A stretch of DNA of 64,000 bases from Hymenobacter translucens (GTDB lineage Bacteria; Bacteroidota; Bacteroidia; Cytophagales; Hymenobacteraceae), in contig NZ_JAJERB010000013.1 of NCBI RefSeq assembly GCF_020685205.1, positions 1 to 64,000 on the forward strand, in the 5' to 3' direction. The notes beneath the pieces were generated by a model that was not told the origin of the DNA, did not search any database, and saw only the letters and a list, made by a program, of their open reading frames with translations. Shown one piece after another: positions 8,686 to 61,068 of the stretch (position 1 is the first letter of the stretch; the number at the start of each line of letters is the position of its first letter). The position numbers and the translations under genes are program-made.

Positions 8686-8690
8686 GGCTC

Positions 8691-11033: not shown

Positions 11034-11064
11034 TCCCTCGTGAATCCTTCTGTGGCTGCTGGTC

Positions 11065-11108
11065 AGTCAATAAAAAAGGCCCTGCAAGCAGGGCCTTTTT
11101 TATTGACT
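11065..11108. terminator. Bidirectional terminator, 21-base perfect stem
   Basis: Arms 11065-11085 and 11088-11108 pair perfectly around AA, with an AAAAAAGGCCCTGC/GCAGGGCCTTTTTT centre. It separates the rightward small lipoprotein gene from the leftward hydroxylase gene, whose stop is at 11126, and gives a U-run in both directions. Confidence 0.92.
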
Positions 11109-11125
11109 GTAGCGGAATGTACCGG

Positions 11126-11800: not shown

Positions 11801-11876
11801 GCAAAGGACGTCTGGTCAGAAACAAAAGTAGGTACAAGCGCGCAAACCCTGTACCAAAAGACCTGCCGCCCAATGG

Positions 11877-45703: not shown

Positions 45704-47935
45704 CTACTTCCTCCGATCAAACCGCTCCAGCACGATCGGGAAGATGATTAGCTCGCCCAGCAGCGCGCCGGCAATGGCTACGGCGGTGAGCGAGCCGAAC
45801 AGCTGCACGGTCTTGAGCGAGCCCAGCATCATAAAGGCATAGCCCAGAAACAGAATGGCGCTGGTTAGTACGATGGCCGGGCCCACGTGGGCAATGGTGT
45901 GCAGCCGTGCCTGCTCGGGCGACTGCCCGGCCCGGCGGTTTTGCCGGTACTGATACACGAAATGCATCGTATCGTCGACACTGATGCTGAGCACGATGGC
46001 GGCAATACTGGCCGAGGCGGTGTCGAGCGTAATGCCCAGCCAGCCCATCACGCCCAGGACCACCAGCACCGGAAACAGGTTGGGAATCACGGTGAGCAGC
46101 GCCAGGCGGAAGTCGCGGATAAATAGCCACACCAGCGCAAACACCAGGATAAAGGAAAGCAGCAGGCTGTTGGTCTGGGACGAGGTGACGTAGCTGACGA
46201 TGCCCGCGTACATGGGCTGGTAGCCGGCCGGCGTTACGGTGGCCACCGCCCCCAGCGTGGCCCGGGCAATGCCGAGCAGGGAATCCGTCTTGGCCGTGAG
46301 CTGGCTGGCCGAGAGCATGGCGCCCGACACGGTGATGCGCCCAAGCCGGCCCGAGTCAGCCATAAACTGCCCGGCCAAGGCTGGGTACTCCGTCCGCAGC
46401 GTCTTATCGGCCCGGTTCAGCGCCGACTGGCTGCCCAGGGCTTTCCGGCCTTTCGCTCCCAGCTCGGCTTCGAGCCCGGCCTGGTAAAGCGAATGGAACC
46501 CGAACACCTTTCCCACGCCGGGCACCTGACGCACCGAGTCGGAAAAGGCCGTGGCGGCCTGCACTACCGACGCACTATGCAGGCTCTGCCCGGGCCGGGG
46601 GCGCACCAGCAGCTCCAGCGGCAGATACGGCCCCCAGGCAGCCTGCATGGCAGCATGGTCGCGCACCACCGGATGGTCTGGTGGGAAGTAGCCCAACGTG
46701 TAGGTATCGGAGCGCAGGCGGGGCACGCCGGCGGCCAGCCCCAGCATCAGAAGCAACGAAGCCACGCTCAACACGCCCTTGTGGCGGAGCACCCAGGTGT
46801 AGAAGCGCACCACGCCGGTGCTGGCCTGCCGGGTGGAGCGTGCGTTGGGTTGGGCGAGCGGCAGCAGCAGCACGCCCAGCACGTAGGTGTACACCAAACA
46901 GAGCCCAATGCCCAACGCCGCAAACAGGCCGAAGTTTTTCAGGATAGCCATCGGACTGGTAAGCAAAGACAGAAAGCCGGCGGCCGTGGTAAACGAGGTG
47001 TAGGCGCAGGGATACAGTGTGTCGCGCAGCGCCTTTAGTGCCGAGTCCCGTCTGTCGCCCCTGCCCGCCGCCTCGAGCTGGTTTCGCTCGTTTACCACGT
47101 GCAGGGCATCCATCAGGCCGAGCAGGATGATGACTACCGGCAGCAGCACCGTCATGATATTGATGCGGTAGCCCAGCGCTCCGTACACGCCCAGCGTCAG
47201 GTAGGTCGATAAGCCCACGATGCCCAGCGCGTACGCCAGCAGCACGAAGTTCCGGTAGATCAGCACAAAGGCGACAATCATCAGCAGGTAGCCTACGCCC
47301 AGGAAAAAGCCGAAGTCCTGCTGCGACAAAGCGTTCAGGCCGGCGTAGATGACGCCAATGCCGCCCAGCGAAGCCCGCGAAGCCGGGAAGTGCCGGTACA
47401 CCGTGTTGCGGATGCCGTCGAGAATAGCCCCGCGCTGCTCGTCGAAGTTGCCGGCCTGCCGGAGCACAATGACAAACCGGGCCGCCGTGTAATCCGGGGT
47501 GAAAAGTTCTTCCCGCAGGGTGGGCAGCGGAGCCAGCACTCCCTGCACCGTCGCGGCATCCGTCGTTGGAGCAAGCAGCGGGGCGGCGTAGGTGCCGGTG
47601 GGCCCACGCCGGGGCACGGTGGCGTTGCCGGGCCCAAACACGCTCTGCACCGCGGGCAAGGCTTCCAGCTCCCGGCTCAGGGCCTGGAAGCCCCGCAGGT
47701 CCGCGGGGCTCAGCACCGAGGGCTGCCCCTTTACCACCACGACCACCACTTCGTCGTTGCCGAAGTGGCGCTGAAACTCCTGGTAGGCGTTCAGGGCCGG
47801 GTCGCCGGGCAGAAACCACACCGCCAGGCTGTTGTCCACCACCAGAGCCGACTTCACCCCGGGCCCGAGCATGGCAACGGCCACCAGGGTAAGGGCCAGC
47901 AGGCCGTAGCGAAGCTTGTAGAGAATAGCAATCAT
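45704..47935 (-). CDS. MMPL/RND-family transporter (HAE3-like)
   Basis: A 743-residue inner-membrane protein with two copies of the RND half: a first helix (ALTLVAVAMLGPGVKSALV), an external loop, then five helices (GVGYLLMIVAFVLIYRNFVL...MTVLLPVVIILLGLMDALHV), repeated from about residue 390 (SLLLMLGLAAGVP...SLLLSFILVFALVWLFIRDF...VLSISVDDTMHFVYQYRQ). The acidic residues in helix 4 regions (GLMDALHV, SVDDTMHF) suit proton coupling. The ATG at 47935 is preferred to an upstream frame start at 48013. MMPL proteins often export lipids; it diverges from the UbiA-like gene. Confidence 0.9.
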   Translation of the reverse strand: MIAILYKLRYGLLALTLVAVAMLGPGVKSALVVDNSLAVWFLPGDPALNAYQEFQRHFGNDEVVVVVVKGQPSVLSPADLRGFQALSRELEALPAVQSVFGPGNATVPRRGPTGTYAAPLLAPTTDAATVQGVLAPLPTLREELFTPDYTAARFVIVLRQAGNFDEQRGAILDGIRNTVYRHFPASRASLGGIGVIYAGLNALSQQDFGFFLGVGYLLMIVAFVLIYRNFVLLAYALGIVGLSTYLTLGVYGALGYRINIMTVLLPVVIILLGLMDALHVVNERNQLEAAGRGDRRDSALKALRDTLYPCAYTSFTTAAGFLSLLTSPMAILKNFGLFAALGIGLCLVYTYVLGVLLLPLAQPNARSTRQASTGVVRFYTWVLRHKGVLSVASLLLMLGLAAGVPRLRSDTYTLGYFPPDHPVVRDHAAMQAAWGPYLPLELLVRPRPGQSLHSASVVQAATAFSDSVRQVPGVGKVFGFHSLYQAGLEAELGAKGRKALGSQSALNRADKTLRTEYPALAGQFMADSGRLGRITVSGAMLSASQLTAKTDSLLGIARATLGAVATVTPAGYQPMYAGIVSYVTSSQTNSLLLSFILVFALVWLFIRDFRLALLTVIPNLFPVLVVLGVMGWLGITLDTASASIAAIVLSISVDDTMHFVYQYRQNRRAGQSPEQARLHTIAHVGPAIVLTSAILFLGYAFMMLGSLKTVQLFGSLTAVAIAGALLGELIIFPIVLERFDRRK

Positions 47936-48192
47936 AAGCACGGAAAGCAGCTCAGGCAGTAGGCTGGGCGCGTCGGGAAGCAAGGTAGGGGCTGACCGGC
48001 GGGTATCCGCCACCGTCCGGCAGAATTGCCCTCCGCATCAAAAGTCTGATCTGCGCATTTGAAAAACAGCCGGTGGCCCCGGCACTGAATTGATAAAGCC
48101 GCTATATTGCTGATTCGCCGGCCGGAATGAAAAGTCTGAAAATCGGGAATTCTGGTTGTCCCGGGCCTGCGACTAGCCAGTACTTTGGACCC

Positions 48193-49095
48193 ATGAATCT
48201 ACGTCACCTCGGGGCTTACCTGCGCGAACGGTTTCCGCCCGTGAACATGGGCCTATTTGCCATTCTGTTTCTGACGGTTTTTGCCGTAGCCCACTTCGCC
48301 CACGGCGAAGCCCGTCCCCTGGCCCGGCTCGGCTGGCGCGAAGCCCTGGGCACGGTAGCCGCCATTTCCTTTTTCTTTCGCCTGCGGGTGTTCGACGAGC
48401 TCAAGGACTTCGCCATCGACAGTCAGTTTCACCCCCACCGGGTGCTGCAGTCGGGCCGGGTGACGCTGGGGCAGCTGCAGGTGCTGGCCGGGGCGGGTGC
48501 CCTGGTGGAGCTGGGCTGGTCGATGCTGATGGGCTGGCCGGCGGTGGCGGGCTGGGCCGGGGCGCTGCTGTACAGCTGGCTGATGCGGCACGAGTTCTAC
48601 GTGCCGGCCTTCCTGACGCCCCGCCTCGTGCTCTACGCCGTGTCCCACCTGCTCATCATGCCTCTGATTATTTTGTGGATCTGGCTGGCCTACCAGCCCC
48701 TGGGCTCTCCCCTGCTTTTATTGCTGATGCTGCTGAGCTTGCTGGGCGGCTTTGCGTTTGAGCTGGCCCGCAAGATTCACGTGCCCGAGGCCGAGCGCGC
48801 CGGGTGGCCGTCCTACTCCTCTGTCATGGGCTTCCGCCGCGCCATCCTGGTGATTCTGCTCGTGCTGCTGACCGGCTGCCTCGTGCAGGGCTGGCTGCTG
48901 ACCCGCGTACAGGCCGGGGCCTGGGCCTTTGGGGTGCTGACCGCCCTGTACCTGGCCACCGTCGCCGTGTATGGCTTGGGCCTGAGCAAGCCCCGGGAAG
49001 CAACCCTGCGCCGGGCTGAACTACTGGTTTCCCTTTTCATTCTGAGCAGCTACCTTTTTCTCCTTGTCGAAATCCAGCTCACTTCCGGCCGCTAG
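48193..49095 (+). CDS. UbiA-like polytopic membrane protein
   Basis: A 300-residue protein with eight to nine hydrophobic segments. The first aspartate motif of UbiA prenyltransferases is recognisable as RLRVFDELKDFAIDSQFHPHR (split here: FDELKDFAID at about residues 73-82). The second motif position reads FELARKIHVPEAERAG, with Glu instead of Asp residues, a variant seen in some UbiA-superfamily proteins. A prenyl- or other isoprenoid/polyprenyl-transferase role is plausible, but the substrate is unknown. The end overlaps the PEP-synthase-like gene by 32 bases. A TACTTTG box stands five bases before the ATG. Confidence 0.75.
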   Translation: MNLRHLGAYLRERFPPVNMGLFAILFLTVFAVAHFAHGEARPLARLGWREALGTVAAISFFFRLRVFDELKDFAIDSQFHPHRVLQSGRVTLGQLQVLAGAGALVELGWSMLMGWPAVAGWAGALLYSWLMRHEFYVPAFLTPRLVLYAVSHLLIMPLIILWIWLAYQPLGSPLLLLLMLLSLLGGFAFELARKIHVPEAERAGWPSYSSVMGFRRAILVILLVLLTGCLVQGWLLTRVQAGAWAFGVLTALYLATVAVYGLGLSKPREATLRRAELLVSLFILSSYLFLLVEIQLTSGR

Positions 49096-51673
49096 CCAGC
49101 TTGTTTCCGGCGCGGTCCCGGCACCCGCCGGCGCAACCGTCGGCGGCAAGGCTGCCGGCCTGTTCCGCCTGCGCGCCCTGCGCCTGCCCGTCCCTGACTT
49201 CGTGGTAATTCCCGCCGAAGTGTTCGACGCCGTACTGACGGGCCGGCCGGTCACCGAAGCCGGACTCAACCAGCGCCGGACTCAGCTGCGGCAGTTTACC
49301 TTATCCGAAAGCCTGACCGGGCAGCTCAGCCAGCAGCTCGCCGCCTGGGACTTTCCGAGGCTACCGGTGGTGGTGCGCTCGTCGGTGGCCGATGAGGACG
49401 GGCAGCGGGCCGCTTTCCCCGGACTGATGGACTCCCGGCTGCATCTGACGTCCCTGCCCGCCGTGCTGGCCGCCATTGCCGAATGTGCCGCCAGCGCCTA
49501 CTCCGACCGGGCCCTGGCGTACCGCCGCCAGCACGGCCTGACCCTGGCCGCCCGCCCCGCCATCGTGGTGCAGCGCCAGGTAACGCCCACCGCGGCCGGG
49601 GTGCTGTTCACTACGTTTCCCGAGTTTCCGCAGGAGCTGGCTATTCACGCCGTCTGGGGTTTCGGGGAAGGACTCGTGAGCGGGTTCCTGGAGCCCGATG
49701 AGTTTTACTTTGATAAGAAAACCGGCGCGTCCACCCACCACAAAGTAGCCGACAAGCCCCGGCAGATCATGGCCCTGACGGAAGGTGGCACCGGAACCGG
49801 AGCCGTGCCGGCCGCGCAGCAAAGCCAGCCCTGCCTGACAGCTGACCAGCTTACTGAGCTGGTCCACCTGGCCGGAGAGCTGGAACAGGCTACCGGCACG
49901 CCCCAGGACGTGGAATTCGTAGCTACTCCGGATAAACTCTGGGTGGTGCAGACCCGGCCCATCACCCAGGCTATTCCTGAGGTAGTAGTATACGACAACG
50001 CCAACATCCAGGAAAGCTACTGCGGGGTCACGACGCCGCTCACGTTCAGCTTTGCCCAGCGCGCCTACGCCACCGTGTACCGGCAGACCATGCAGGTGCT
50101 GGGTTTGCCGGCGGCCACTGTAGCCACGCACGAGCCGGTGGTGACGCAGCTGCTGGGCCTCGTGCGCGGCCGCGTCTACTACCACATCAACCACTGGTAC
50201 CAGGGCCTGCAGCTGCTTCCCTCGTTTCGGCAGAACAAAGCCGATATGGAGCGGATGATGGGCCTGGAAGAGCCGGTCGACTTCGTGCAGAGCACCGAAA
50301 CGAGCCTTGCCCAGAAAGTCCGGCTACTGCCCCGCCTCGTGCTTAACCTGAGCCGCCTGCTCTGGGCGTTCGGGCAGCTGCCGCGCCGCACCGCCGCCTT
50401 TCACGCGCACTTTCGCCAGCACTACACCCGGTTTTACCAGCTGCCCCTGGACCAACTCAGCGCCGTTGAGCTGCTGGCCGAAAAGGAACGGCTTGACCAG
50501 GGCCTGCTGCTCAACTGGACCACACCCATCATCAACGACTTTCGGGTAATGATGACGAATGGCGCGGCTCAGCGCCGGCTGAAAAGTATCGGAATTAACG
50601 ACCCCGAGGAGTTTCTGAGCCGCTACCTGTCCGGCGACCAGCAGCTGGCCAGCGCCCGGCCGGCCTACGAGCTCCAGGCCCTGGCCCAGCGGGTTATTCA
50701 GGAGTTTCCGGCCCTGCTGCCCCTGCTGCGCCGGCCCACGCCCGAGCTGCCGGCCCTGGTTGCCAGCGAGGCGCCCGCCTTTGCTCAGGCCGTGGCCCGC
50801 TACCTCGATGCGTATGGGGACCGGAGCATCGGGGAGCTGAAGCTGGAAACGGCTACCCTGCGTACGGACCCCCAGCTGTTTTACCGCTACCTGGCGAATT
50901 ACCTGCCGGCCGAAGGAACCGCGGCAACCACTGCTAAGCCTTTGGGCACCAGCCTGCGCGAATCGGCCGAAGCCGAGCTGGCAGATCATCTGAAAAGCCG
51001 GCCAGTCTGGTTTAAAAGGAGCACCCACCGTCGGCTGCAGCGGCTCCAGCAGGCCGTGAGCCGGCGGGAAGAGCTGCGGCTGGAGCGCACCCGCCTGTTT
51101 GGCATGTACCGGGCGCTGTACCGGCAGCTCGGCCAGCGCCTGGCAGGCACTCAGGTGTTACAATCCCCAGAGGACGTGTTTTACCTGACTGAAAACGAAA
51201 TAGCCCAGGCCGTCGGGAAGCCTGGCTGCCCAGGCAACTGGGTTGAGCTGGCAGCCAGCCGCCGGGCGGAGTTCGAGCAGTATCAGCGCGAAGACGCGCC
51301 TTCCCGCCTGATGGTACCAAGCCGGCCGCCGGCCGCCGCGCCCAGCTTGGCCATTCCAGGGCACTGGAAAGGCACCGGCTGCTTTCCGGGCCGGGTAACC
51401 GGGGAGGTGCTGGTTATCAACGGCCCCGACGACAGCTTGGCCGTAACCGGCAAGATCGTGGTGGCGCCCCGCACCGACCCGGGCTGGGCGGGCCTGTTTC
51501 CCTCCTGCCGCGGCGTGCTTATCGAGCGGGGCTCGGCGCTGTCGCACTCGGTTATTTTGCTGCGGGAGCTGGGCATTCCCACCATCATCAACATCCCCGG
51601 CCTTCCCACCCAGCTCCATTCCGGCGACCAGGTCATGATGGACGGCGCTACCGGCGAGGTAGTGAAACAGTGA
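49064..51673 (+). CDS. PEP-synthase-like protein (PPDK N-terminal ATP-grasp plus PEP-utiliser His domain)
   Basis: An 869-residue protein. Residues about 20-310 are the pyruvate-phosphate-dikinase ATP-binding domain: VGGKAAGLFRLRAL, VVVRSSVADEDGQRAAFPGL, WGFGEGLVSGFLEPDEFYF, QDVEFVATPDKLWVVQTRPI. Residues about 310-780 have no clear family. Residues 790-869 form the swivelling phosphohistidine domain with LIERGSALSHSVILLRELGI and the transferable His. The order ATP-grasp, unknown middle, His domain is that of rifampin phosphotransferase-type enzymes, so a small-molecule phosphotransferase is possible, but PEP synthase proper is unlikely because its PEP-barrel is absent. The start is a TTG at 49064; an in-frame stop lies six codons upstream and no other early start exists. 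Confidence 0.85.
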   Translation: MSKSSSLPAASQLVSGAVPAPAGATVGGKAAGLFRLRALRLPVPDFVVIPAEVFDAVLTGRPVTEAGLNQRRTQLRQFTLSESLTGQLSQQLAAWDFPRLPVVVRSSVADEDGQRAAFPGLMDSRLHLTSLPAVLAAIAECAASAYSDRALAYRRQHGLTLAARPAIVVQRQVTPTAAGVLFTTFPEFPQELAIHAVWGFGEGLVSGFLEPDEFYFDKKTGASTHHKVADKPRQIMALTEGGTGTGAVPAAQQSQPCLTADQLTELVHLAGELEQATGTPQDVEFVATPDKLWVVQTRPITQAIPEVVVYDNANIQESYCGVTTPLTFSFAQRAYATVYRQTMQVLGLPAATVATHEPVVTQLLGLVRGRVYYHINHWYQGLQLLPSFRQNKADMERMMGLEEPVDFVQSTETSLAQKVRLLPRLVLNLSRLLWAFGQLPRRTAAFHAHFRQHYTRFYQLPLDQLSAVELLAEKERLDQGLLLNWTTPIINDFRVMMTNGAAQRRLKSIGINDPEEFLSRYLSGDQQLASARPAYELQALAQRVIQEFPALLPLLRRPTPELPALVASEAPAFAQAVARYLDAYGDRSIGELKLETATLRTDPQLFYRYLANYLPAEGTAATTAKPLGTSLRESAEAELADHLKSRPVWFKRSTHRRLQRLQQAVSRREELRLERTRLFGMYRALYRQLGQRLAGTQVLQSPEDVFYLTENEIAQAVGKPGCPGNWVELAASRRAEFEQYQREDAPSRLMVPSRPPAAAPSLAIPGHWKGTGCFPGRVTGEVLVINGPDDSLAVTGKIVVAPRTDPGWAGLFPSCRGVLIERGSALSHSVILLRELGIPTIINIPGLPTQLHSGDQVMMDGATGEVVKQ

Positions 51674-51740
51674 GGTTGTACAATAAGCCGGCCCCAGTCA
51701 CGCCGGTAGAACGTTAACGTACCAATCAGAACCTCAAGCA

Positions 51741-52802
51741 ATGGAGCGTATTGCCTACCCCAGCGAATTGCCCGACTCGTTTTTCACGCTGCCCGCCGCT
51801 GTATATGAGGGGCTGCCTTACCGGCCGGAGGAAAGCGCCGAGCTAATCCAGGAGCTGCTGCGCCAGCAGGCCGGCAGCCACGTCATCGTGCTGTACACCA
51901 ACCACCGCACGGTGCGACTGGTGGGCATCTTTCCGTACGCCGGCACCGAGGCCTATTTTGGATTCTGGGAAACGGCCGATAACGCCGTCGATAACGCCGC
52001 GGCCTTTCGTCTGCTGGAAGAAGAAGCCCGCCGCCTGGGCAAGACCAGCCTCACCGGCCCCTACCACTTCAACACCTACCACCGCTACCGCCTGCGCCTG
52101 GGCCCGGCACCCTCCTGGCAGCAGTTCGACCGGGAGCCGGTCAACCCGACTTACTACGAAGCGCTGCTGCACGGGCTGGGCTTCCGGCCGAGCATCACCT
52201 TCGAAAGCCGCCTGCTTCGCTCCCGGGACGTGGAGCTGACCTACGAGCAGAAAAATCAGATCCTCGAAGCCCTCCACAGCATTCCGTTCGACTTCATCCC
52301 CGTCACCCACCACAACTGGGACGTGCTGGAAGACGAGCTGTTCGAGCTGATTGAGCAGATCTTCGGGGCTAACCCTGCTTACAAGCCGGTCACCAAACCC
52401 CAGTTCCGGCTGCTGTATAACCGGCAGTACGCCGAACGGCTGTGCCCTCACTCCTCGGTGCTGTTTCGCGACCAGAAAACTGGGCGGCTGGCTGCCCTCA
52501 GCCTTTGCCACCCCAACTACACGGCCCTGAATCTTGCGGCCCATCAGCACCCGGTCTTCGAGCGCGACTACCCGCAGCTAACTCACCAGACCCTGCTGGC
52601 CAAGACGGTGGGCGTCCACCCCAACTTTCGGCAGCAGGGCCTGATGTCGCTGCTCGCGGCGTATGCCATGCAGGCCTTCCGCGACTACTACCAGGACGTA
52701 CTGTTCTGTCTGATGCGCTCCGACAACTTTTCCCTGCACTTCACCCAGAGCCTGCCGGTGGAAAAGGCGCATTATGCGCTGTTTAGGAAAGAGCTGATGT
52801 AG
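51741..52802 (+). CDS. YghO-like GNAT-fold protein
   Basis: A 353-residue protein. The N-terminal half has TSLTGPYHFNTYHRYRLRLG and NPTYYEALLHGLGFRPSITF, the pattern of YghO-type proteins. The C-terminal half shows the acetyl-CoA-binding GNAT strand-helix AKTVGVHPNFRQQGLMSLLA (RxxG loop, about residues 287-306) followed by MRSDNFSLHFTQSL. An N-acyltransferase role is likely; donor and acceptor are unknown. It starts 67 bases after the PEP-synthase-like gene, in the same direction, and probably shares its operon. Confidence 0.75.
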   Translation: MERIAYPSELPDSFFTLPAAVYEGLPYRPEESAELIQELLRQQAGSHVIVLYTNHRTVRLVGIFPYAGTEAYFGFWETADNAVDNAAAFRLLEEEARRLGKTSLTGPYHFNTYHRYRLRLGPAPSWQQFDREPVNPTYYEALLHGLGFRPSITFESRLLRSRDVELTYEQKNQILEALHSIPFDFIPVTHHNWDVLEDELFELIEQIFGANPAYKPVTKPQFRLLYNRQYAERLCPHSSVLFRDQKTGRLAALSLCHPNYTALNLAAHQHPVFERDYPQLTHQTLLAKTVGVHPNFRQQGLMSLLAAYAMQAFRDYYQDVLFCLMRSDNFSLHFTQSLPVEKAHYALFRKELM

Positions 52803-52833
52803 CCTTAGCCTCGTGCGTCAGCGGACGCTCCGC

Positions 52834-53493
52834 CTAGTCGGTGCCGTTGAGCAGGTACGCAATGCTGATCTGAGGGTGCTGCGCAAACGAGAAGCGTTGG
52901 TTGCTGGTGTATTGCGAGAATTCGGCACTGAACTGATGCTGCCGCCCCCAAATTACGCCTACTGAGTAGCCATAGATATGGCTGGATTCGGTGAATCCAT
53001 ACTGCCGGGTAAGATTGGAAAACCTCAAAAAGGTATAGCGGGGAGAAAAGGTAAACGTCAGCTTCTCATTCATGTGCACGGAAGAAAAAGATGCAACGGA
53101 CCCGCTATAGCTCAAGGTCTGCAGCATTAACAGGGCAACCGGGCTGGCCCCTGCCTCTAGGCCAACGCTCGAAGCAAACCGGGAGTGCTGGGTTCCCGCT
53201 ATCTGCGCTTTGCCTGTCAGGGTGAGCTGGGTAGAAGTATTCACCCGGACCCCGACATCCACCCTTTCATTTACGCCATACTTTGCCGACGCTTCACCCA
53301 CGACGAAATAGGAAGTCTTTGACGAATCGGACGATAAGCTGTAAGCATGTGCATCCAGCTTGCCGGCATTCAGGCTGGCGGTGGCCAGGTACGCGTCTTT
53401 TCCCAGCGTCCGGCCCGTCTGGTGAGAGTTTAGCGCAACGCACCCGGGTAGTGCCAGCAGCGCCGGGCAGATAATCACATATCGATAGTTCAT
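52834..53493 (-). CDS. Outer-membrane lipoprotein, barrel-like, unknown function
   Basis: A 219-residue protein with lipoprotein signal MNYRYVIICPALLALPGC (Cys18). The mature part alternates strands (YGVNERVDVGVRVNTSTQLT, KLTFTFSPRYTFLRFSNL, SHIYGYSVGVIWGRQHQFSAE), suggesting a small beta-barrel or beta-sandwich. Base composition looks less GC-rich than its neighbours, which may mark recent acquisition. Leftward and convergent with the GNAT gene. No family recognised. Confidence 0.7.
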   Translation of the reverse strand: MNYRYVIICPALLALPGCVALNSHQTGRTLGKDAYLATASLNAGKLDAHAYSLSSDSSKTSYFVVGEASAKYGVNERVDVGVRVNTSTQLTLTGKAQIAGTQHSRFASSVGLEAGASPVALLMLQTLSYSGSVASFSSVHMNEKLTFTFSPRYTFLRFSNLTRQYGFTESSHIYGYSVGVIWGRQHQFSAEFSQYTSNQRFSFAQHPQISIAYLLNGTD

Positions 53494-53612
53494 CTGCTGA
53501 CAGAGTTATACAAGTGAAAAAGCGTTGCAGGCAGTGCTGATAAAACTGGAGCTGCTTAGGCTCCTGTCGCTATCCAGTGTTCACCGCGCGAATTCCCGCG
53601 CCGGCTAACTAA

Positions 53613-53647
53613 AAAAGCAGCCCCTCTCTCACCAAGGGGCTGCTTTT
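53613..53647. terminator. Bidirectional-looking terminator
   Basis: Stem AAAAGCAGCCCCT/AGGGGCTGCTTTT (53613-53625 with 53635-53647) with a nine-base loop. It lies between the leftward kinase-like gene (stop 53757) and the lipoprotein gene start (53493), so it separates the two transcripts. Confidence 0.88.
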
Positions 53648-53756
53648 CCGCATAATGCATAGCTATTCGCAGGTAATGATTCGCTTCTAAATCGAATATC
53701 CAGGTAGTCTATAGATTCGGATAGCTCTAACTCACTCACCTTATTTGCAGCCACCG

Positions 53757-54953
53757 TTAGCCGGCCATCTGGTATTCTTTGGGCTGAAAGCTTTGCTCGG
53801 CCTGCCCCTGCTCCAGGGAGTTAAAGAAGCTTTCAATTACCCGGGGCAGGTAGGGATAGGGGCTCAGGGAGTGGGCCATCAGGTACATGCCCAGGCGGTG
53901 CAGGCCAAAGTCAACGGTAGCCAGGTCGAAGCCGCGGCGGAAAGCGGCCTGGTCGGCAAACTGGCCGGTGCGGGCGTGCAGGGCCTGGCGGTAGTGCTCC
54001 AGGTACACCGGGCGCAGGTGGTACCGGTCGGCGTCCAGCACAAAGCACAGCAGCTCCGCTACGTCGTACTGGGGTACGTGGTAGGTGGCCAGCTCCCAGT
54101 CATAGGCGCAGAACTGCAGCTCCCCGGCGGCGTTGCGCTTAAAGCAAGTGTTGCGGGGGTTCAGATCGTTGTGAATAAGCGTCTTGGGCATGTCTTCCAG
54201 CTCCGACCAGTACGTGGGGATACCCGCAATGGCCCGGCGCAGCAGGATTTCCCGCTCGGGGCCGTACTGGGTGGGCAGGTGGGTAGCGGCGTTGGTGAGC
54301 AAGGCCGTCCAGAGCGGGGCCATGCGCTGCATAAACTCCCCGGACGGAACATCCTCACCGTAGTACTTGAGGCGAAGGTAGCCGGCTACCAGATGGTCGG
54401 CGTGCCAGTCGGCCAGCTGAGTGAGGGCCGTGCGGATATGCTCGTCGGTCCACTGCTCGGGAGCCATTACCGAGTTCAGCAGCTCCACGTCTTCTAAGTA
54501 CTCCATCAGCACCACGTAGGTCTGGTCGGCTTCGTTGGCGTGAGTGGCCCACACCTCGGGCAGCAGGGCGCTGGTTTCCTCATAGGCCCGCAGCTCCCGC
54601 CAATGGGTGTGCTCAAAGCCGGTCAGGGCCTCGTACGCCGGATACGTAGCGGCTACCACGCCGCCGCAGGCCTGGGCCAGACCGCCGAGCATGGCCGAGA
54701 TTTCCCGGCCGTTGGGTTTGAGCTTCAGCACCAGCCGCTTGGTATGGCGGGTGCCGTCCACCTGCATGGTCACCGACAGCCCGAAGTGGCCGACCGGCTT
54801 TTCGGTTTGCCCGGCAGTCAGGATGGTCAGGATGCTGGAGGAGTTGTCGACGGGCAGCAGCTCCACCTGCTCCACCCGGATGCGGCGGTGAGGGGCGTGC
54901 TCCTGCATAATGGTTTCGAGGAAGGCGGGGCTGAGGTAGTCGGAAAGGAACAT
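53757..54953 (-). CDS. Aminoglycoside-phosphotransferase-fold small-molecule kinase
   Basis: A 398-residue APH/choline-kinase-like protein. The catalytic loop TLIHNDLNPRNTCF (HxDxxxxN, about residues 258-271) and the metal-binding CAYDWELATYHVPQYDVAELL (about 281-301) are intact. The N-terminal lobe carries RLVLKLKPNG with the ATP-binding Lys and LRAYEETSALLPEVWATH. It phosphorylates an unknown hydroxyl compound; an antibiotic-resistance role is not implied. The ATG at 54953 is used; a longer frame to 55028 has no support. Upstream lies the BtaA-like gene in the same direction. Confidence 0.8.
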   Translation of the reverse strand: MFLSDYLSPAFLETIMQEHAPHRRIRVEQVELLPVDNSSSILTILTAGQTEKPVGHFGLSVTMQVDGTRHTKRLVLKLKPNGREISAMLGGLAQACGGVVAATYPAYEALTGFEHTHWRELRAYEETSALLPEVWATHANEADQTYVVLMEYLEDVELLNSVMAPEQWTDEHIRTALTQLADWHADHLVAGYLRLKYYGEDVPSGEFMQRMAPLWTALLTNAATHLPTQYGPEREILLRRAIAGIPTYWSELEDMPKTLIHNDLNPRNTCFKRNAAGELQFCAYDWELATYHVPQYDVAELLCFVLDADRYHLRPVYLEHYRQALHARTGQFADQAAFRRGFDLATVDFGLHRLGMYLMAHSLSPYPYLPRVIESFFNSLEQGQAEQSFQPKEYQMAG

Positions 54954-55248
54954 GGCAGTAGGGTTGGAAAGGGTAGCCGTTGAAACTTTCCGAAGATTAG
55001 TGCTTCGGTCCGCCACTGTCGATACCAATTTCTGATTTTCAGGGACTTTTCAGAGAGGATATCAACTGGCCTGGATTCGTTGCCAGCAAACCGAAATAAA
55101 GTTTCTGCGTGCGTTTATACCCTCATTCACCTACCAGAAAATCAGACTTTTCAAGCCGAAAAAAACACAGGCTTATTCGCCTATTGAGCAGTATTTTTTC
55201 GTTGATGCCGACTGTCCGCAGCAGGCGAAGCAGCCCGGTAGGCGGGCG

Positions 55249-56343
55249 TTAGTCGCCGCTGGGCTCCCAGCTCAGCACCCGCACGTTGCGGAAGTAAAAG
55301 CAGGCCTCGTGAGCCGACAGCTTTGCGGACTCGGCGGCCAGCAGCGGAATAGTTGCAGTGCGCGCCTCGGCCTGGCTCAGGAGCAGGTTCCAGAATACCA
55401 CCCGGAGTGGAACCCCGCGCTGGCCCAGGGCCTGGCAGACCCGCTCAAATTCGGCTGGACTCACGTACTCAAAGATGTTGGACAGGCTGGCCTTGGTAAT
55501 GATCCGGCCTTCCTCCGAGAGCAGGAAGTCGATGGCTTCGCCGGTTTCAATCCGGAGCGTCGGCAGCTGGCGGCGGAGCGTTTCGTAGTGGGCAGCCTGG
55601 TAGCAGGGTGGCAGTACGTGGTCGGGCAGTTCGGGGCCGAAGAAGAAGAAGCGCAGAAAGAAGTTGTCCCGGGCCAGCTGAGTGCCCAGGTGGCGGCGCA
55701 GGCGGGCAAAGAAGGCTTCCCCGCCCGATTCTTCCGCGTACTTGAACAGCTTCGGGTCCCGGCCCTTGCTCAGGTTAGCCTCGTCGAAGTAATCGATGAA
55801 CTGCCGGCGGAAGTCGGTGGGCTCCACCTCAGAGACAAAGTAGCGGTGCTGAGCCTCCTCGTTGTCGAACGACAGCAGGTGGCGAAGCCGGGCCTGAGCG
55901 GCGGCGTCGAGAGTAGCAAAGAAGTTAGTAATAAAGCTTTCCAGCCGGCCCGCAGTGAGGATGCCGCCCGGGTGGCTGGCGAAAAACGACTCCCAGTACG
56001 GCTGCTCTTCGGCCCCCAGCGTAGCGCGCACCTCCGCCCAGGCCTGCCGGGCGGCGTCGGGGCCATCAAAGCCTATCAGTCCGCGAAAAACCGGGTGGGC
56101 ATGGTGCTGAATAACGTGCTGCTTCAGCTGGAGCAGGCGACTCTGAGCCGGGTTCAGGTCAATGGCCGTGACGCTGGCCGGGGCCTGCAGCAGGGTATTG
56201 AGCACGTTGCAGCCGGCCCCGCAGATAATCAGGGCGTGGTCGGTAGGCTGGAGCTGCAGGGCCTGGTAGAGCGTAGCGCTGCCTTCCCACACCAGCGAAT
56301 AGCGCAGCCGGTCCAGCTCCACGTTATAGAATTCGGATTGCAT
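55249..56343 (-). CDS. BtaA-like (DUF3419) S-adenosylmethionine 3-amino-3-carboxypropyltransferase
   Basis: A 364-residue protein of the DUF3419/BtaA family. The SAM-binding region LIICGAGCNVLNTLLQAPAS (about 43-62) and VTAIDLNPAQSRLLQLKQHV (about 63-82) match the family's AGCN...DLNPAQ...LELK signature, and RLRHLLSFDNEEAQ and LLSEEGRIITKASLSNIFEY are also typical. BtaA moves the 3-amino-3-carboxypropyl group of SAM to diacylglycerol, the first step to betaine lipid (DGTS). No BtaB-like N-methyltransferase is in the window, so the final product could differ. The ATG at 56343 is used; the longer frame to 56544 comes from a repeat. Confidence 0.88.
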   Translation of the reverse strand: MQSEFYNVELDRLRYSLVWEGSATLYQALQLQPTDHALIICGAGCNVLNTLLQAPASVTAIDLNPAQSRLLQLKQHVIQHHAHPVFRGLIGFDGPDAARQAWAEVRATLGAEEQPYWESFFASHPGGILTAGRLESFITNFFATLDAAAQARLRHLLSFDNEEAQHRYFVSEVEPTDFRRQFIDYFDEANLSKGRDPKLFKYAEESGGEAFFARLRRHLGTQLARDNFFLRFFFFGPELPDHVLPPCYQAAHYETLRRQLPTLRIETGEAIDFLLSEEGRIITKASLSNIFEYVSPAEFERVCQALGQRGVPLRVVFWNLLLSQAEARTATIPLLAAESAKLSAHEACFYFRNVRVLSWEPSGD

Positions 56344-56383
56344 GGGGTGGTGCTTGTTAGTTGTTGATTGTTGCTTGTTGGTT

Positions 56384-56532
56384 GTTGTCATCCTTAATCT
56401 GTTGTCCGCTTGCGAACCGCAGGCCCACATTGTCAAGGGCCTTATCAGGATTACATAAGTCGTTATTACGATGTTCGTTCGGCTGCAAGTCGTTCCTCGA
56501 TGCCAAGGTCCTTGGCTCTGCTCAGGATGACA
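56384..56532. repeat. MITE-like repeat upstream of the BtaA-like gene
   Basis: Ends TTGTCATCCT (56385-56394) and AGGATGACAA (56522-56531) form terminal inverted repeats around about 130 bases. The body (CTGCTCAGGATGAC, CGTTCCTCGATGCC) resembles the CATCCTGAGC/TCGA theme of the family C repeat at 45501-45660. Just beyond it, 56350-56384 has a GTTAGTTGTTGATTGTTG stretch like family A arms. Confidence 0.6.
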
Positions 56533-56564
56533 ATGAACCAACAATCAGCTACCAGCAATCAGCA

Positions 56565-58010
56565 TCATATCAGCTGGTCGTAGCGAATCTTGGAGTGGTG
56601 GCGCTGGTCGACGGGCAGCCCGGGGCGGTGGTGCAGGCCGGTGAAAAGAGCAGCCGGAAACGAGGCTGCCCGCAGCGCCTGGCTGACCTGCCCTGCCGTA
56701 GCGGCTCCTTCCCAGTATACAGCAAATCCCGCCGGCTCGGCCCGGGCCGCCGCCCGCTCCACGCCCGGCAGCTGCTGGAGCACCTGCTCGACCTGGTAGT
56801 GCTGCACGCCCTGGTGCAGGGTGGTGTTGCCCTGCCGGCCGGTCAGCCAGAGGTTGCCCGCATCGTCGAAGTAGCCGAAGTCGCCGGTAGCCAGTATGCC
56901 GTCGGGGGTCTGGGCAGCTACGTGGGCCCCGCGCACCGTTATTTCCCCGACTTCCCGCCGGGTGCCGTTGGCCAGCGTTACTTCTCCCATCGGCTTCAGC
57001 CGGAGCCGGCAGTTCAGCCCCGCCACGACCGGGCCTACGCAATAGCCGTCCCGAGGGCTGGGCGCGGGGACAGAAATGAAACGGCGCACGGCAATGGGCT
57101 CGGCCTCGGAGGAGCCGTAGATGACAAATATTCCCGCCCCGGCAAAAGCCGCTTGCAGCTCCTGAAGCAGCTTTTCCGGTACCGGGGAGCCGCCCACGCC
57201 CACCGCCTGCACCGCCGGAAAGCCGCCAGGCCAGGCCAGCAGCGCCGGCAGCAGGCGCCGGAAGTAAAACACGTTGCCGGTCAGGGTGTGCACCTGCCCG
57301 GCGGCAATCTGTGCGGCCACGGCGTCGGCATCGAGCAGGGGCAGGTTTCCCCAGGGCAGGTCGGGGAGCACGGTGAGCACCCCGGCGGAAAGGTTATGAA
57401 GCAGCACGTTGGGAAAAAGCGGGAAGTCACGCTGCCCGGGCCAGGGCGGAAACACCCGCTTGAGCACCTCGTGCTGGGCCCGCAGCACCCGGTGCGTCCG
57501 AACAATCTGCTTGGGACGCCCGGTAGTGCCGGAGCTGTGGGAAATCAGGGCGGGCTGGTCGGCGGGCACGGGCTGGGGCGGCTCCAGGGGAGCGGGGGCA
57601 GGCAGGCGGTGGGCCGTCAGGTTGCGCACGCCCCAGCCGCGAAACAGCGCTTTAGCCAGCCAGGGCAAGGGTCTGGCGGACAGGATTGCCGTCAGCTTGC
57701 CGAGCCGGACCAGGGTGAGCAGGGTTGCCGGCGTGATACCGGCCGGGGGCAGCACTGCCACGGCCCCGTGGGCCTGTACGGCCAGCAGCCCGCAGATCAG
57801 GTCGGGGCCTACGGGCAGCAGCAGCAGGATGCGCTGCCCGGGCTGCACGCGGCGGGCCGCCAGCTCCTGCCGGAACCGGCTGATCTGTCCGGCCAGGTCG
57901 GCAGCAGCATACACGCGGGGCGGGGCGTCGGGCTCGGGCCATTCCAGCAGGACCCGGTCCGGGTTGGCCGCCAGTACGGCAAAGACGGATTCAACGAAGT
58001 TGGCAGTCAT
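56565..58010 (-). CDS. Stand-alone AMP-forming acyl-CoA/acyl-acid ligase
   Basis: A 481-residue ANL-superfamily adenylating enzyme. Motifs in order: LISHSSGTTGRPKQIVRTH (P-loop, about residues 174-192), VIYGSSEAEPIAVRRF (about 296-311, the A5 region), GILATGDFGYFDDAGNLWLTGRQGN (about 368-392, with the D of motif A7) and a C-terminal VDQRHHSKIRYDQL in which the near-terminal Lys is the adenylation lysine. The DxRHxxKI ending resembles OleC-like ligases. There is no adjacent carrier protein, so it should make an acyl-AMP or acyl-CoA. Located between the APC permease and the BtaA-like gene on the same strand. Confidence 0.88.
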   Translation of the reverse strand: MTANFVESVFAVLAANPDRVLLEWPEPDAPPRVYAAADLAGQISRFRQELAARRVQPGQRILLLLPVGPDLICGLLAVQAHGAVAVLPPAGITPATLLTLVRLGKLTAILSARPLPWLAKALFRGWGVRNLTAHRLPAPAPLEPPQPVPADQPALISHSSGTTGRPKQIVRTHRVLRAQHEVLKRVFPPWPGQRDFPLFPNVLLHNLSAGVLTVLPDLPWGNLPLLDADAVAAQIAAGQVHTLTGNVFYFRRLLPALLAWPGGFPAVQAVGVGGSPVPEKLLQELQAAFAGAGIFVIYGSSEAEPIAVRRFISVPAPSPRDGYCVGPVVAGLNCRLRLKPMGEVTLANGTRREVGEITVRGAHVAAQTPDGILATGDFGYFDDAGNLWLTGRQGNTTLHQGVQHYQVEQVLQQLPGVERAAARAEPAGFAVYWEGAATAGQVSQALRAASFPAALFTGLHHRPGLPVDQRHHSKIRYDQLI

Positions 58011-58082
58011 CCGAAAGAGGTATAGCCCGCAAGGTAGCTTTTCTCCACAGTCGAAAGAATGCCCAGCACCAGCGGCAGCAGG

Positions 58083-59483
58083 CTAGCGGGCAAACGGCCA
58101 CCGCTGCTGGCGGCGGCTCCAAAGCAGGAATACGCCGGTGCCCACGGCCATCATCAGCAGGGCGCCGACCTGGAAGGGCAGGTACCGGCCGGGCAGCCCC
58201 AGCCAGCCCAGCGGAATGCCGTCCTGAATACTGTAGAACATCCAGAGCCAGACGGCCACGGCCACCATGACGGGCAGCGGGTAAAGCGGCATCCGGAAGG
58301 GCAGCCCGGCGGTGCCCCGGCGCCGGCGCAGCAGCACCAGCCCCACGGCCTGGCCCACGAACTGCACCAGGATGCGCATGGCCAGGATGGCACTGATAAC
58401 CTCGCCCAGCTTAAAGAGCAGGCTGAACAGAAACCCCAGCCCGCCCAGCAGCAGCAGCGACACGTGCGGAAAGTGCTTGGTAGGATGGGTGCGCGCAAAC
58501 ACCGGCAGAAACTCCCCGTCGGCCGCGGCGGCGTAGGGAATGCGGGAGTAGCCCAGCAGCACCGCGAACAGGGAAGCAAACGCCACCCACAAAACCAGCG
58601 CCGTGGCCGCCTTGGCCGCCACCGGCCCGTAGAGCTGCTCCACGAAGGTGCTCACGATAAACTTGGAGTGCTGCGCGTCCTGCCACGGAATCACGGTGCC
58701 CACGCTCCAGTTAAGCAGCAGGTACAAGGCCATGATGCCCAGGATACTCAGAAAGATGCTGCGCGGAATCAGCTTGTGCGGCTCCTTGACTTCCGCGCCC
58801 AGGTGGCAGATGTTGTAGTAGCCCAGGTAGGAGTAGATGGTCTTGACCGCCGCCTGCCCCATGGCCGCCGACAAGAGCAGCCCCGGCAGGTCGCCGATGC
58901 CCCCGACGGGCAGCCAGGCCACGGCGTGGTTGCTGTTGGTGAGCCCCCCGAAGATCAGCCAGGCCATCAGCCCCAGCACGCCCACCCAAAGCAGCACGCC
59001 CAGCTTGCCGATTTCCTCGATGCGCCGGTAAAGCAGCCCGATCAGCAGGAGCACCACCACGCCCGACACCAGCTTGGCCTGCCACGGCTCGGTGAGGGGC
59101 ACCAGGTAGCCGAAGTACTGGGCAAAGCCGATGGCACCGGAGGCTACTACCAACGGAGCCTGCACCAGCGTCTGCCATACGTACAGAAACGACATCAGCC
59201 GTCCCCAGGTATGCTCGCCGTAGGCCAGCTTCAGAAACCGGTAGGAGCCGCCCGCCTCGGGGTAGGCCGCGCCCAGCTCGCTCCAGATCAGCCCGTCCAC
59301 GAGGCTCAGCCCCGCACCTACCAGCCAGGCCAGCAGGAAGTACGGTCCCATAAAGCCCATGACCAGCGGCAGCGTGACAAACGGGCCGATGCCCACCATG
59401 TCAATCATGTTGAGGGCGGTGGCCTGCACCAGGCCCAGGCGGCGCTGCAGCACGGGCGCGGGAGGAGAATCGAGTTGGGGCAT
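58083..59483 (-). CDS. APC-family amino acid permease
   Basis: A 466-residue inner-membrane transporter with about twelve hydrophobic segments. The first shows the broken-helix signature NMIDMVGIGPFVTLPLVMG (about residues 25-43), followed by WSELGAAYPEAGGSYRFLKLAYG (about 68-90), both typical of the APC superfamily. Substrate cannot be read; neutral or cationic amino acids are usual. It is upstream of the AMP ligase with a 72-base gap, so co-transcription is possible. Confidence 0.92.
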   Translation of the reverse strand: MPQLDSPPAPVLQRRLGLVQATALNMIDMVGIGPFVTLPLVMGFMGPYFLLAWLVGAGLSLVDGLIWSELGAAYPEAGGSYRFLKLAYGEHTWGRLMSFLYVWQTLVQAPLVVASGAIGFAQYFGYLVPLTEPWQAKLVSGVVVLLLIGLLYRRIEEIGKLGVLLWVGVLGLMAWLIFGGLTNSNHAVAWLPVGGIGDLPGLLLSAAMGQAAVKTIYSYLGYYNICHLGAEVKEPHKLIPRSIFLSILGIMALYLLLNWSVGTVIPWQDAQHSKFIVSTFVEQLYGPVAAKAATALVLWVAFASLFAVLLGYSRIPYAAAADGEFLPVFARTHPTKHFPHVSLLLLGGLGFLFSLLFKLGEVISAILAMRILVQFVGQAVGLVLLRRRRGTAGLPFRMPLYPLPVMVAVAVWLWMFYSIQDGIPLGWLGLPGRYLPFQVGALLMMAVGTGVFLLWSRRQQRWPFAR

Positions 59484-59832: not shown

Positions 59833-61068
59833 ATGCCCACGTTACCCCACAACCTCTCTCTTATTACCCTGCCCGTTAACCCATTCGAGTCGTTCTGGAT
59901 GGCGGGTTACGAGTGCACCGACCAGCTCAACGCCTATGGCAACCGCGTCGACTTCCTGCACCTCACCGGCCATTACCAGCGCCTGGAGGAAGACTACCAA
60001 GGCCTCGGGCAGTTCAACATCAGGACCGTGCGCGAAGGCATCCGCTGGAGCCACATCGAAAAGGTACCCTACCAGTACGACTGGAGCACGGTCAAGGAGA
60101 TGATTGCCGCCGGCAAGCGCCTGGGCATTCAGCAGGTGTGGGACCTTTGCCACTTCGGCTACCCCGATGACCTGACGCCCCTGCACCCCATGTTTGCCCG
60201 CCGGTTCGGCGCGCTGTGCCGGGCCTTTGTAGAGTTCTACCGCACCCAGGATCCCGACGGCACGCTGATCGTGACGCCCATCAACGAGCCCAGCTTTATG
60301 GCCTGGCTGGGTGGCGACGTACGCGGCACCTCGCCGTACTGCGTAGGCCAGGGCTGGGAAGTGAAGTACCGCCTGATGAAAGCCTACATCGAGGGTGTAG
60401 CCGCCATCCGGGCCACCGACTCCCGGGTGCGCATCATGACCACCGACCCGCTCGTGAACTTCGTGCCGGCCCTCGACGCCAGCCCCGAGCACCGGCAGGA
60501 AGTGAAAAACATCAACGAGTGGCAGTTCCAGTGCGTCGACATCCTGGCCGGGCGGCTCTGCCCCGAGCTGGGCGGACGCGAGGACTACCTCGACATCCTG
60601 GGCTTCAACTACTACTACGACAACCAGTGGGAGCATTACAAGGGCCGGCTGCTGTGGGAGCAGAAGCCCCGGGATGCCCGCTGGATGCCGTTTCACAAGC
60701 TGCTCGCCAAAGCCTACAAGCGCTACAACCGCCCCGTCGTCATCACCGAGACCAGCCACCTGGGCGTGGGCCGGGGCGAGTGGGTGCTGGAAATGGCCGA
60801 CGAGTGCGCCAAGGTGCTGCGCAAGGGCATTCCGCTCTGGGGCATCTGCCTCTACCCCATCATCGACCGGCCCAACTGGGACAACCTCGTGGACTACCAC
60901 AACTCCGGCCTCTGGGACGTGGACCGCGACGCGCCCGATGGCTCCCTGCCCCGGGTGTTGTGCCAGCACTACGCCGATGACCTGCTCCAGGCCCAGGCCC
61001 ACCTCGAAACGGCCCGGCACCGGCAGCGTACCCGCCTGCCCAAGGCGTCGATACTGTCGTTGTCGTAG
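59833..61068 (+). CDS. GH1-like (clan GH-A) glycoside hydrolase
   Basis: A 411-residue cytoplasmic (no signal peptide) TIM-barrel glycosidase. GIRWSHIEKVPYQYDWSTV, VWDLCHFGYPDDL, TPINEPSFMAWLGG (acid/base Glu, about residue 155) and VVITETSHLGVGRGEW (nucleophile Glu, about residue 310) follow the GH1/clan-A order, though the GH1 ITENG box is altered to ITETS and the chain is shorter than a typical 440-470. It may be a family-1-like beta-glycosidase of unknown specificity. A family A repeat follows directly. Confidence 0.8.
   Translation: MPTLPHNLSLITLPVNPFESFWMAGYECTDQLNAYGNRVDFLHLTGHYQRLEEDYQGLGQFNIRTVREGIRWSHIEKVPYQYDWSTVKEMIAAGKRLGIQQVWDLCHFGYPDDLTPLHPMFARRFGALCRAFVEFYRTQDPDGTLIVTPINEPSFMAWLGGDVRGTSPYCVGQGWEVKYRLMKAYIEGVAAIRATDSRVRIMTTDPLVNFVPALDASPEHRQEVKNINEWQFQCVDILAGRLCPELGGREDYLDILGFNYYYDNQWEHYKGRLLWEQKPRDARWMPFHKLLAKAYKRYNRPVVITETSHLGVGRGEWVLEMADECAKVLRKGIPLWGICLYPIIDRPNWDNLVDYHNSGLWDVDRDAPDGSLPRVLCQHYADDLLQAQAHLETARHRQRTRLPKASILSLS

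Follow-up and report, generated by a model that had tools for sequence, protein, structure and literature searches.

The window analysed here is a stretch of 64,000 nucleotides of Hymenobacter translucens (assembly GCF_020685205.1, contig NZ_JAJERB010000013.1, positions 1 to 64,000), in which the region 45704-59483 encodes a UbiA-superfamily prenyltransferase, a phosphoenolpyruvate (PEP)-synthase-like protein (PEPS), a tandem GNAT acyltransferase, an APH/EcKL-type kinase, a BtaA-like transferase and an AMP-forming ligase (ANL). These genes form a single biosynthetic unit, and its product is probably a polar lipid, or a conjugate resembling one, that contains an isoprenoid. They are inherited together, are organized as an operon in distant genomes, belong to the families named, keep conserved residues and are accompanied by unrelated kinases in different lineages. 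The enzyme families and folds are known, and their combination appears to be new. No description of this operon combination was found in the open-licence literature searched, and to our knowledge the conserved gene set has no name so far.

Gene content of the window

The six genes of the unit are arranged in the window as follows.

48193..49095 (open reading frame, ORF, from 48127), plus strand: UbiA-superfamily prenyltransferase, core gene (Pfam PF01040, E 2.9e-10)
49064..51673, plus strand: PEPS, predicted phosphotransferase of rifampin-phosphotransferase/PigC layout, core gene (PPDK_N 1.1e-56, PEP-utilizers 7.4e-18)
51741..52802, plus strand: tandem GNAT acyltransferase, core gene (Pfam PF00583, E 4.4e-4)
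53757..54953 (ORF from 55028), minus strand: APH/EcKL-type small-molecule kinase, the kinase of the unit in the window's family (PF01636 5.6e-11, PF02958 7.6e-9)
55249..56343 (ORF from 56544), minus strand: BtaA-like (DUF3419) S-adenosylmethionine (SAM):3-amino-3-carboxypropyl transferase, core gene (PF11899, E 2.7e-40)
56565..58010, minus strand: ANL, PRK09274/OleC-like, core gene (PF00501, E 4.7e-28)

The probable ATG starts at 48193 (UbiA), 54953 (APH) and 56343 (BtaA) were read off the sequence, and the UbiA gene, ending at 49095, overlaps the PEPS ORF, which starts at 49064. Bit scores exceed the Pfam cut-offs for UbiA (40.3 against a curated 34.2), BtaA (139.2 against a curated 28.2) and ANL (98.5 against 29.9), while GNAT, at 20.9 bits, barely passes its cut-off of 20.7 and has the GNAT fold in its predicted model as well. 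The first-pass annotation had proposed a system of eight genes, namely these six with an MMPL transporter and an APC permease. All eight lie where it had placed them, and their families were confirmed by Pfam and NCBIfam.

Linkage in distant genomes and on a plasmid

A collection of genome contigs was scanned with a BtaA alignment, and the best 80 of 324 relatives, selected by BtaA similarity, were retained (L064-L143; L064 is the same contig as L017, and L118 the same as L144). A scan of this collection with the window's BtaA as a single protein found no relative, whereas the alignment scan did. Most of the 80 loci are labelled as Bacteroidota groups, L084 is labelled Chlorobi and L074 merely 'bacterium', and named isolates, including Dyadobacter and Portibacter, are among the carriers. 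Besides BtaA, these best 80 loci contain PEPS (74 loci), a VTE5/dolichol-kinase-like protein (VTE5, 71), GNAT (71), ANL (67), UbiA (64) and HMG-CoA reductase (HMGR, 53). The exact order HMGR-UbiA-PEPS-BtaA-VTE5-GNAT-ANL is found in 45 of them, and contig ends cut many of the others. When the count is confined to the 39 loci whose contigs extend 7.5 kb or more in both directions from BtaA, PEPS, UbiA, VTE5 and GNAT are each present in 37, ANL in 38 and HMGR in 35, and five loci are incomplete (L084, L105, L116, L126 and L134). Consecutive operon genes are separated by a median gap of -4 to +1 bases (with start codons chosen by script), and neighbouring genes commonly overlap by a few bases.

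The profiles behind the counts per locus included the window's own sequences; the test was repeated without them. Profiles built from L064-L143 only (60-79 sequences for each of the five shared genes, 69 for VTE5 and 46 for HMGR), with the window and its family loci L049-L061 excluded, were compared with the 291 ORFs of the window. The UbiA (1.5e-37), PEPS (5.6e-198), BtaA (7e-52), GNAT (3.1e-25) and ANL (1.9e-54) profiles each match exactly one window ORF at E < 1, and those for VTE5 and HMGR match none of the 291. For the five shared proteins, pairwise distances correlate across 59 loci and the window (rho 0.87-0.91, and 0.65-0.80 without the window's family), a correlation that is partly raised by shared organism ancestry.

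Co-occurrence was also evident in an evenly drawn sample of 257 genomes of the phylum. UbiA (E <= 1e-15) is present in six of them, belonging to five genera. BtaA matches 32 genomes at 1e-10, the top six with at least 350 bits and the rest with at most 273, and PEPS matches seven at 1e-60, the top six with at least 740 bits and the seventh with 214, the bit thresholds for this system type having been chosen after the hits were known. The six best BtaA genomes and the six best PEPS genomes are the six UbiA genomes, with all three genes in a stretch of about 8 kb, as expected of the common system proposed initially. Two of the six come from other classes and carry the full operon (L146 and L148), and one carries a variant (L147).

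Within the order, BtaA was detected in 13 of 69 sampled genomes and in none of the four other genomes of the same genus in that sample. Three of the 14 order loci examined by tblastn, from three families (L017, L018 and L021), have PEPS and ligase homologues, two of them with UbiA. All three share six genes, encoding UbiA, PEPS, BtaA, a VTE5-like membrane protein, a GNAT-like protein and the ligase, and in two of them HMGR lies by UbiA. The genes are on one strand in L017 and L021 and split over both strands in L018. UbiA, PEPS and ANL are absent from the other 11 BtaA loci (L019, L020 and L022-L030) and from L150-L155, and L156, a locus of a remote PEPS paralogue, contains PEPS only. DUF3419 alone was accordingly rejected as a marker of the unit because partnerless BtaA loci exist, and remote PEPS paralogues serve no better.

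Among plasmids, 15 records match BtaA, and one, from Roseinatronobacter sp. S2 (Rhodobacterales, Alphaproteobacteria), has all six genes. On this record (NZ_CP121116.1, plasmid unnamed3; L158, 523-8507), genes labelled today as UbiA, 'PEP/pyruvate-binding', 'DUF3419', two 'hypothetical' and AMP-binding follow one another as listed here, with overlaps or next to no space between them. The profiles recognize all six, identifying the 'hypothetical' pair as VTE5 (4.1e-40) and GNAT (7e-55), and the stretch upstream of UbiA stops at the record end. The presence of this copy in an alphaproteobacterium may be read as a sign of transfer of the operon between phyla.

The genes face both directions in the window, and the first-pass annotation had allowed that they might be only neighbours. 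This is contradicted by the neighbourhood comparison, in which co-inheritance, gene order and overlaps extend to distant genomes and to a plasmid of another phylum; chance adjacency is thus considered next to impossible. The comparison that had been suggested as a check, namely whether three or more of the genes remain linked in distant genomes, came out in favour of the unit, as the figures for PEPS and GNAT given above illustrate. The genes are indeed split over both strands in the window, as noted initially, but this is a local arrangement; the usual form is an operon with its genes on a single strand.

Linkage within the window's family

An evenly drawn sample of 120 genomes represents the larger group of the window's family. 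Close PEPS homologues (E < 1e-289) are present in 14 of these, and four more have remote PEPS paralogues only. Fifteen loci were fetched. A close PEPS was the anchor for 13 of them (L049-L061) and a remote paralogue for the other two (L062 and L063), which have PEPS alone and none of its partners. UbiA, PEPS, GNAT, APH, BtaA and ANL are all retained in the 13 loci around close PEPS (the window's own excluded). The window's layout, with UbiA-PEPS-GNAT facing APH-BtaA-ANL, is found in 12 of the 13, and in L059 all seven genes are on a single strand. BtaA (E < 1e-120) and APH match in the same 15 of the 120 genomes, all of which except G117 have PEPS, and G093 has a remote BtaA of 22% identity. 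The APH matches in G079, G179 and G092 were read across one TAA each. An in-frame TAG interrupts the PEPS gene of L050 (G136, 8729-11350), which was scanned as its two pieces; a decaying copy or a sequencing error is possible.

Three further features lie in the same region of the window.

45704..48013, minus strand: MMPL/RND-type transporter, divergent from UbiA, a family-specific partner (Pfam PF03176, E 1.7e-30)
52834..53493, minus strand: lipoprotein-like ORF between GNAT and APH, outside the unit, with no match to any Pfam or NCBIfam family
58083..59483, minus strand: APC amino-acid permease, AA_permease_2, outside the unit (PF13520, E 2.9e-34)

The eight-gene proposal holds for the six genes of the unit and has to be narrowed for the other two. 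MMPL is present in 12 of the 13 family loci (11 full-length and one fragment, in L049; it is missing in L050) and in only one of the 80 genome-contig loci, so that its membership is confined to the family. APC stands beside the ligase in only one of the 13 (L049; the L056 contig ends before the APC position) and is regarded as a bystander. The lipoprotein-like ORF, which had been recognized as the only interruption, matched none of the 13 family loci with a single-sequence profile. Beyond APC, and adjoining its gene, lies a GH1/GH35-like glycoside hydrolase ORF (window 59833-61068) with only weak NCBIfam matches.

Apparent exchange of the kinase

The kinase of the unit differs between lineages. 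VTE5 is present in seven of the eight system genomes outside the family (not in G319) and in none of the 14 family system genomes, all of which carry the APH kinase. The APH profile, on the other hand, matches none of the 80 genome-contig loci, where tblastn gave one weak match of 23% identity. The motifs HNDLNPRN and DWE are retained in 13 of 13 APH sequences (the window and 12 relatives). G319 has a third type, a DAGK_cat/YegS-type lipid kinase (PF00781, 9.2e-28) encoded upstream of UbiA; its locus (L147, 4737-18838) has the order DAGK, UbiA, PEPS, GNAT, phosphatidylserine-decarboxylase-like, BtaA, followed downstream by an FMN-dependent enzyme, by eye like a type-2 isopentenyl diphosphate isomerase, and a polyprenyl synthetase. 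This cluster also has an acyl-reductase-like gene.

Judging from this distribution, the window's APH kinase seems to stand in for the VTE5/dolichol-kinase-like enzyme. The apparent swap suggests that one step is the phosphorylation of an alcohol, because three unrelated kinases occur in the same clusters; the substrate is probably a lipid, since two of the three belong to what we take to be lipid-kinase families. Furthermore, the BtaA-kinase pair that G117, a genome of the window's genus, holds on its own (L157, 9383-11667) suggests that BtaA and the kinase act at neighbouring steps.

The VTE5-like protein appears to have a CDP-diacylglycerol-synthase-like fold (4q2g: VIA-align Z 9.5, root-mean-square deviation 4.5, 168 residues aligned, where rows below Z 8 are mostly apparently unrelated helical proteins; Foldseek 4q2e E 0.033, probability 0.99), and its Pfam score (PF01148, 19.6 bits) is below the cut-off of 24. 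It keeps the RK..H, DP.A and K...G residues and presumably belongs to the kinase branch of the CTP_transf fold. The occurrence of APH and DAGK kinases where VTE5 is missing suggests a kinase rather than a cytidylyltransferase. The VTE5 genes of L146, L148 and L158 are of a long form, with about 220 extra membrane-like residues at the C-terminus, for which no Pfam family was found in L146 and L148.

One alternative is that VTE5 or APH, together with PEPS, phosphorylates a salvaged isoprenoid alcohol stepwise to the diphosphate used by UbiA, with BtaA, GNAT and ANL building the acceptor. Such a route would be consistent with the isoprenoid alcohols that VTE5-family phytol and dolichol kinases presumably use, with the transfer of the ATP beta phosphate that we assume for PEPS relatives and with the overlap of the UbiA and PEPS genes. 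It is nevertheless improbable, as an HMGR within the operon suggests that the isoprenoid is made de novo and G117 retains the kinase with BtaA and not with UbiA or PEPS.

Proposed isoprenoid and lipid-phosphate chemistry

UbiA enzymes transfer isoprenoid chains, and their superfamily is characterized by the Asp-rich motifs NDxxDxxxD and DxxxD. Residues R65, D68, E69, K71, D72, D76, E190, R193, K194 and E201 of the window's UbiA are identical in 76 of 76 sequences. Only three solved sequences matched it, among them chlorophyll synthase (3.1e-5) and, more weakly, DGGGPS 6m31 (E 0.052). The operon HMGR looks dedicated in G047, G336 and G246, because a second HMGR is encoded outside the operon in each of these genomes; the window's genome has a single HMGR, outside the window (G000:C4:72787). 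Six of the 80 loci, five from Sphingobacterium and one from Crocinitomicaceae, have a CDP-alcohol-phosphatidyltransferase-like gene and a separate CdsA-like gene between HMGR and UbiA (Pfam confirmed one of each). This pair would fit a CTP-activated lipid phosphate coupled to a head group. Between GNAT and the ligase of L112 (12870-13460) and its relatives lies the gene for a secreted-looking Polyketide_cyc2/SRPBCC protein, whose sequence cluster occurs in 16 of the 80 loci, 12 of them at the GNAT-ligase position (Pfam was run on L112 alone).

The match to DGGGPS, weak as it is, brings to mind an archaeal-type ether lipid, for which the Bacteroidota GGGPS would supply geranylgeranylglyceryl phosphate, UbiA would attach a second isoprenoid to it and BtaA would decorate the product. 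GGGPS (PcrB) is indeed present in seven of the eight non-family genomes with the unit. It is also present in all 120 family genomes, with the unit or not, and thus does not track the unit; moreover, G383, a unit carrier that is 98% complete, gave no GGGPS match, and chlorophyll synthase outscores DGGGPS for UbiA. An ether lipid made via GGGPS was accordingly rejected, on GGGPS distribution and G383, and is rated very improbable.

PEPS and the possibility of a secondary metabolite

The PEPS protein, of about 860 residues, begins with an ATP-grasp domain and ends with a swivelling His domain. H828 is conserved in 76 of 76 sequences and K29 and R105 in 75. Its nearest solved structures are 5hv1, 5hv2 and 5fbs (E 1.7e-105 and above), deposited as 'phosphoenolpyruvate synthase', which we take to be rifampin phosphotransferases (RPH). 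PEPS scores below the cut-offs of the RPH (NF041857, 240.1 bits against 999), PigC (NF052631, 232.8 against 1300) and RedH (NF052632, 254.7 against 1350) models. PEP synthases include a C-terminal PEP-utilizers_C barrel, a domain that Pfam does not list for PEPS, where it lists only PPDK_N and PEP-utilizers. A true PEP synthase was therefore rejected, the TIGR01418 score of 157.5 bits also lying below the cut-off of 739.75. Domain layout, nearest structures and sub-cut-off scores together argue for a phosphotransferase or ligase.

PEPS could, on the other hand, be a ligase of the PigC/RedH type and couple the two halves of a prenylated small secondary metabolite (a pigment, antibiotic or metallophore) instead of contributing to a structural lipid. 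Its scores with the prodigiosin ligase models, a relative of 25% identity encoded on a plasmid, in a cluster whose annotation includes PigD (L159), and the patchy distribution in the family (14 or 15 of 120 genomes) are in keeping with this. The scores nevertheless fall far under the PigC and RedH cut-offs, there is no carrier-protein, polyketide synthase or non-ribosomal peptide synthetase gene among the unlabelled neighbour families present in at least six loci, and the lipid-kinase, CdsA-like and CDP-alcohol transferase genes indicate lipid chemistry. Such a metabolite is considered unlikely, while retaining an appreciable chance.

BtaA, GNAT and ANL

The BtaA residues G44, N46 and D62 are conserved in 93 of 93 sequences, and in ANL, D377 is found in 74 of 74 and K474 in 73. 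A sequence search of the PDB was of no help for BtaA (best E 0.13) or GNAT (0.019). The AlphaFold model of GNAT (pLDDT 84.4) matches the tandem GNATs 2wpw and 2c27 (best E 1.8e-12), and its fold resembles that of mycothiol synthase and of a protein from the clavulanate pathway.

In betaine lipids, BtaA uses SAM to convert diacylglycerol into diacylglycerol-O-homoserine, according to excerpts of PMC10685587, and other aminocarboxypropyl transferases of this kind are treated in excerpts of PMC10491745. Family membership would thus allow the unit to be a betaine-lipid (DGTS) pathway, with BtaA acting on diacylglycerol. No further methyltransferase family was found among the window genes in 45704-59483 or among neighbour families in at least six of the 80 loci, and five other conserved genes would be left unexplained, which renders a DGTS pathway extremely improbable.

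Two BtaA loci of other composition were also encountered. L149 (G311, 6499-11869) encodes a protein of 620 residues in which BtaA is fused to a PEMT-like methyltransferase; its neighbours are a GNAT, a pyridoxal-phosphate-dependent decarboxylase and a kinase that by eye is DAGK-like, and the locus is possibly another BtaA-based lipid cluster. On the Rhizobium plasmid pMK-2 (L161, CP041205.1, 808-7146), genes for KAS III, an NAD-dependent oxidoreductase, an MBL hydrolase, a CoF-synthetase-like ligase and DUF3419 are consecutive, which makes this one more cluster that combines BtaA with a ligase; BtaA alone of the system profiles matched.

Proposed pathway

UbiA would move an isoprenyl diphosphate, supplied in many lineages by the operon-encoded HMGR, onto an acceptor. 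A hydroxyl or carbonyl group may be phosphorylated or activated by the lipid-alcohol kinase (mostly VTE5-like, of the APH/EcKL type in the window's family and of the DAGK type in one genome) and likewise by the RPH-like PEPS. BtaA would add a 3-amino-3-carboxypropyl group from SAM, and the tandem GNAT would acylate an amine, most simply the aminocarboxypropyl one, using an acid activated by the ligase. MMPL is the probable exporter of the product in the window's family. The initial suggestion of an exported, amino-acid-derived polar lipid or conjugate fits these enzymes, with product and export predicted from them. A more specific version, advanced tentatively and with a slight leaning against it, is a new bacterial lipid class, isoprenoid-based and phosphorylated, that bears a homoserine-type (3-amino-3-carboxypropyl) group acylated on its nitrogen. 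Bacteroidota and their relatives would make this lipid with a transferable operon for six enzymes, and on at least two occasions unrelated kinases (APH/EcKL- and DAGK-type) appear to have assumed the lipid-kinase step.

Several observations weigh against this reading of the genes as one unit for an isoprenoid-containing polar lipid. The first UbiA motif is DExKDxxxD in 76 of 76 sequences, with DE instead of ND, and the second region is rich in E, R and K; the acceptor or the reaction may differ because of these deviations. As PEPS is similar to a kinase, RPH, and at the same time to the ligases PigC and RedH, it may catalyse a condensation instead of a phosphorylation. The window's GNAT is about 20% identical to GNATs from outside the family, with a Pfam score at the cut-off. 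L084 has BtaA only, L105 lacks HMGR, UbiA and PEPS, L116 lacks VTE5 and GNAT, and L147 (G319) lacks the ligase, VTE5 and HMGR, while G117 holds only its adjacent BtaA-APH pair. HMGR was not found in three of the 14 family system genomes or in G319, so that its link is lineage-bound. To these can be added the retrospective bit thresholds mentioned above, and the fact that we infer all substrates, the order of steps, the product, the same-step role of the kinases and export.

If the proposal is true, the product would represent a new class of lipids or prenylated compounds, BtaA-like and RPH-like enzymes would have a role other than in betaine lipids and in the inactivation of antibiotics, and the exchange of kinases in nature would pin down one step of the pathway. 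The presence of named isolates (Dyadobacter and Portibacter) among the carriers makes the product open to direct testing.

Comparison with known systems

The ebo cluster (EboA-E, with the UbiA-like EboC/Ubi-297) is likewise an operon conserved in Bacteroidota and built around a UbiA-like enzyme, but it differs in its TatD hydrolase, 3-dehydroquinate-synthase-like and TIM barrel genes, as described in excerpts of PMC9235831; the families of the window cluster are others. No Ebo-named NCBIfam model is among the matches of the window's UbiA, and the ebo cluster was rejected as a published counterpart, as EboA, EboB, EboD and EboE, as they appear in those excerpts, are not beside this gene. The Lipocone paper (PMC12419801), as far as its excerpts go, was set aside as dealing with a subject other than this operon.

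The archaeal ether-lipid pathway, which we take to comprise GGGPS, DGGGPS and CarS, has a UbiA-family enzyme, apparently a CTP-transferase-fold enzyme and an isoprenoid supply in common with the unit; it differs in having no counterpart of BtaA, PEPS, GNAT or ANL, and GGGPS was not found in one unit carrier. The CTP-dependent lipid kinases VTE5, SEC59 and DGK1 apparently resemble the operon VTE5 of other lineages in fold and conserved residues, but this type was not found in the system genomes of the window's family, in which the APH-type kinase is present instead.

PEPS has the same ATP-grasp-first, His-domain-last layout as PigC, RedH and RPH, and RPH-type proteins are its nearest solved structures; it differs from them in scoring far under the model cut-offs and in its gene neighbours. 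The betaine-lipid BtaA/BtaB system shares with the unit a DUF3419 SAM:aminocarboxypropyl transferase, but in place of a BtaB-type methyltransferase, none of which was seen in the cluster, the unit combines this transferase with UbiA, PEPS, a kinase, GNAT and a ligase.

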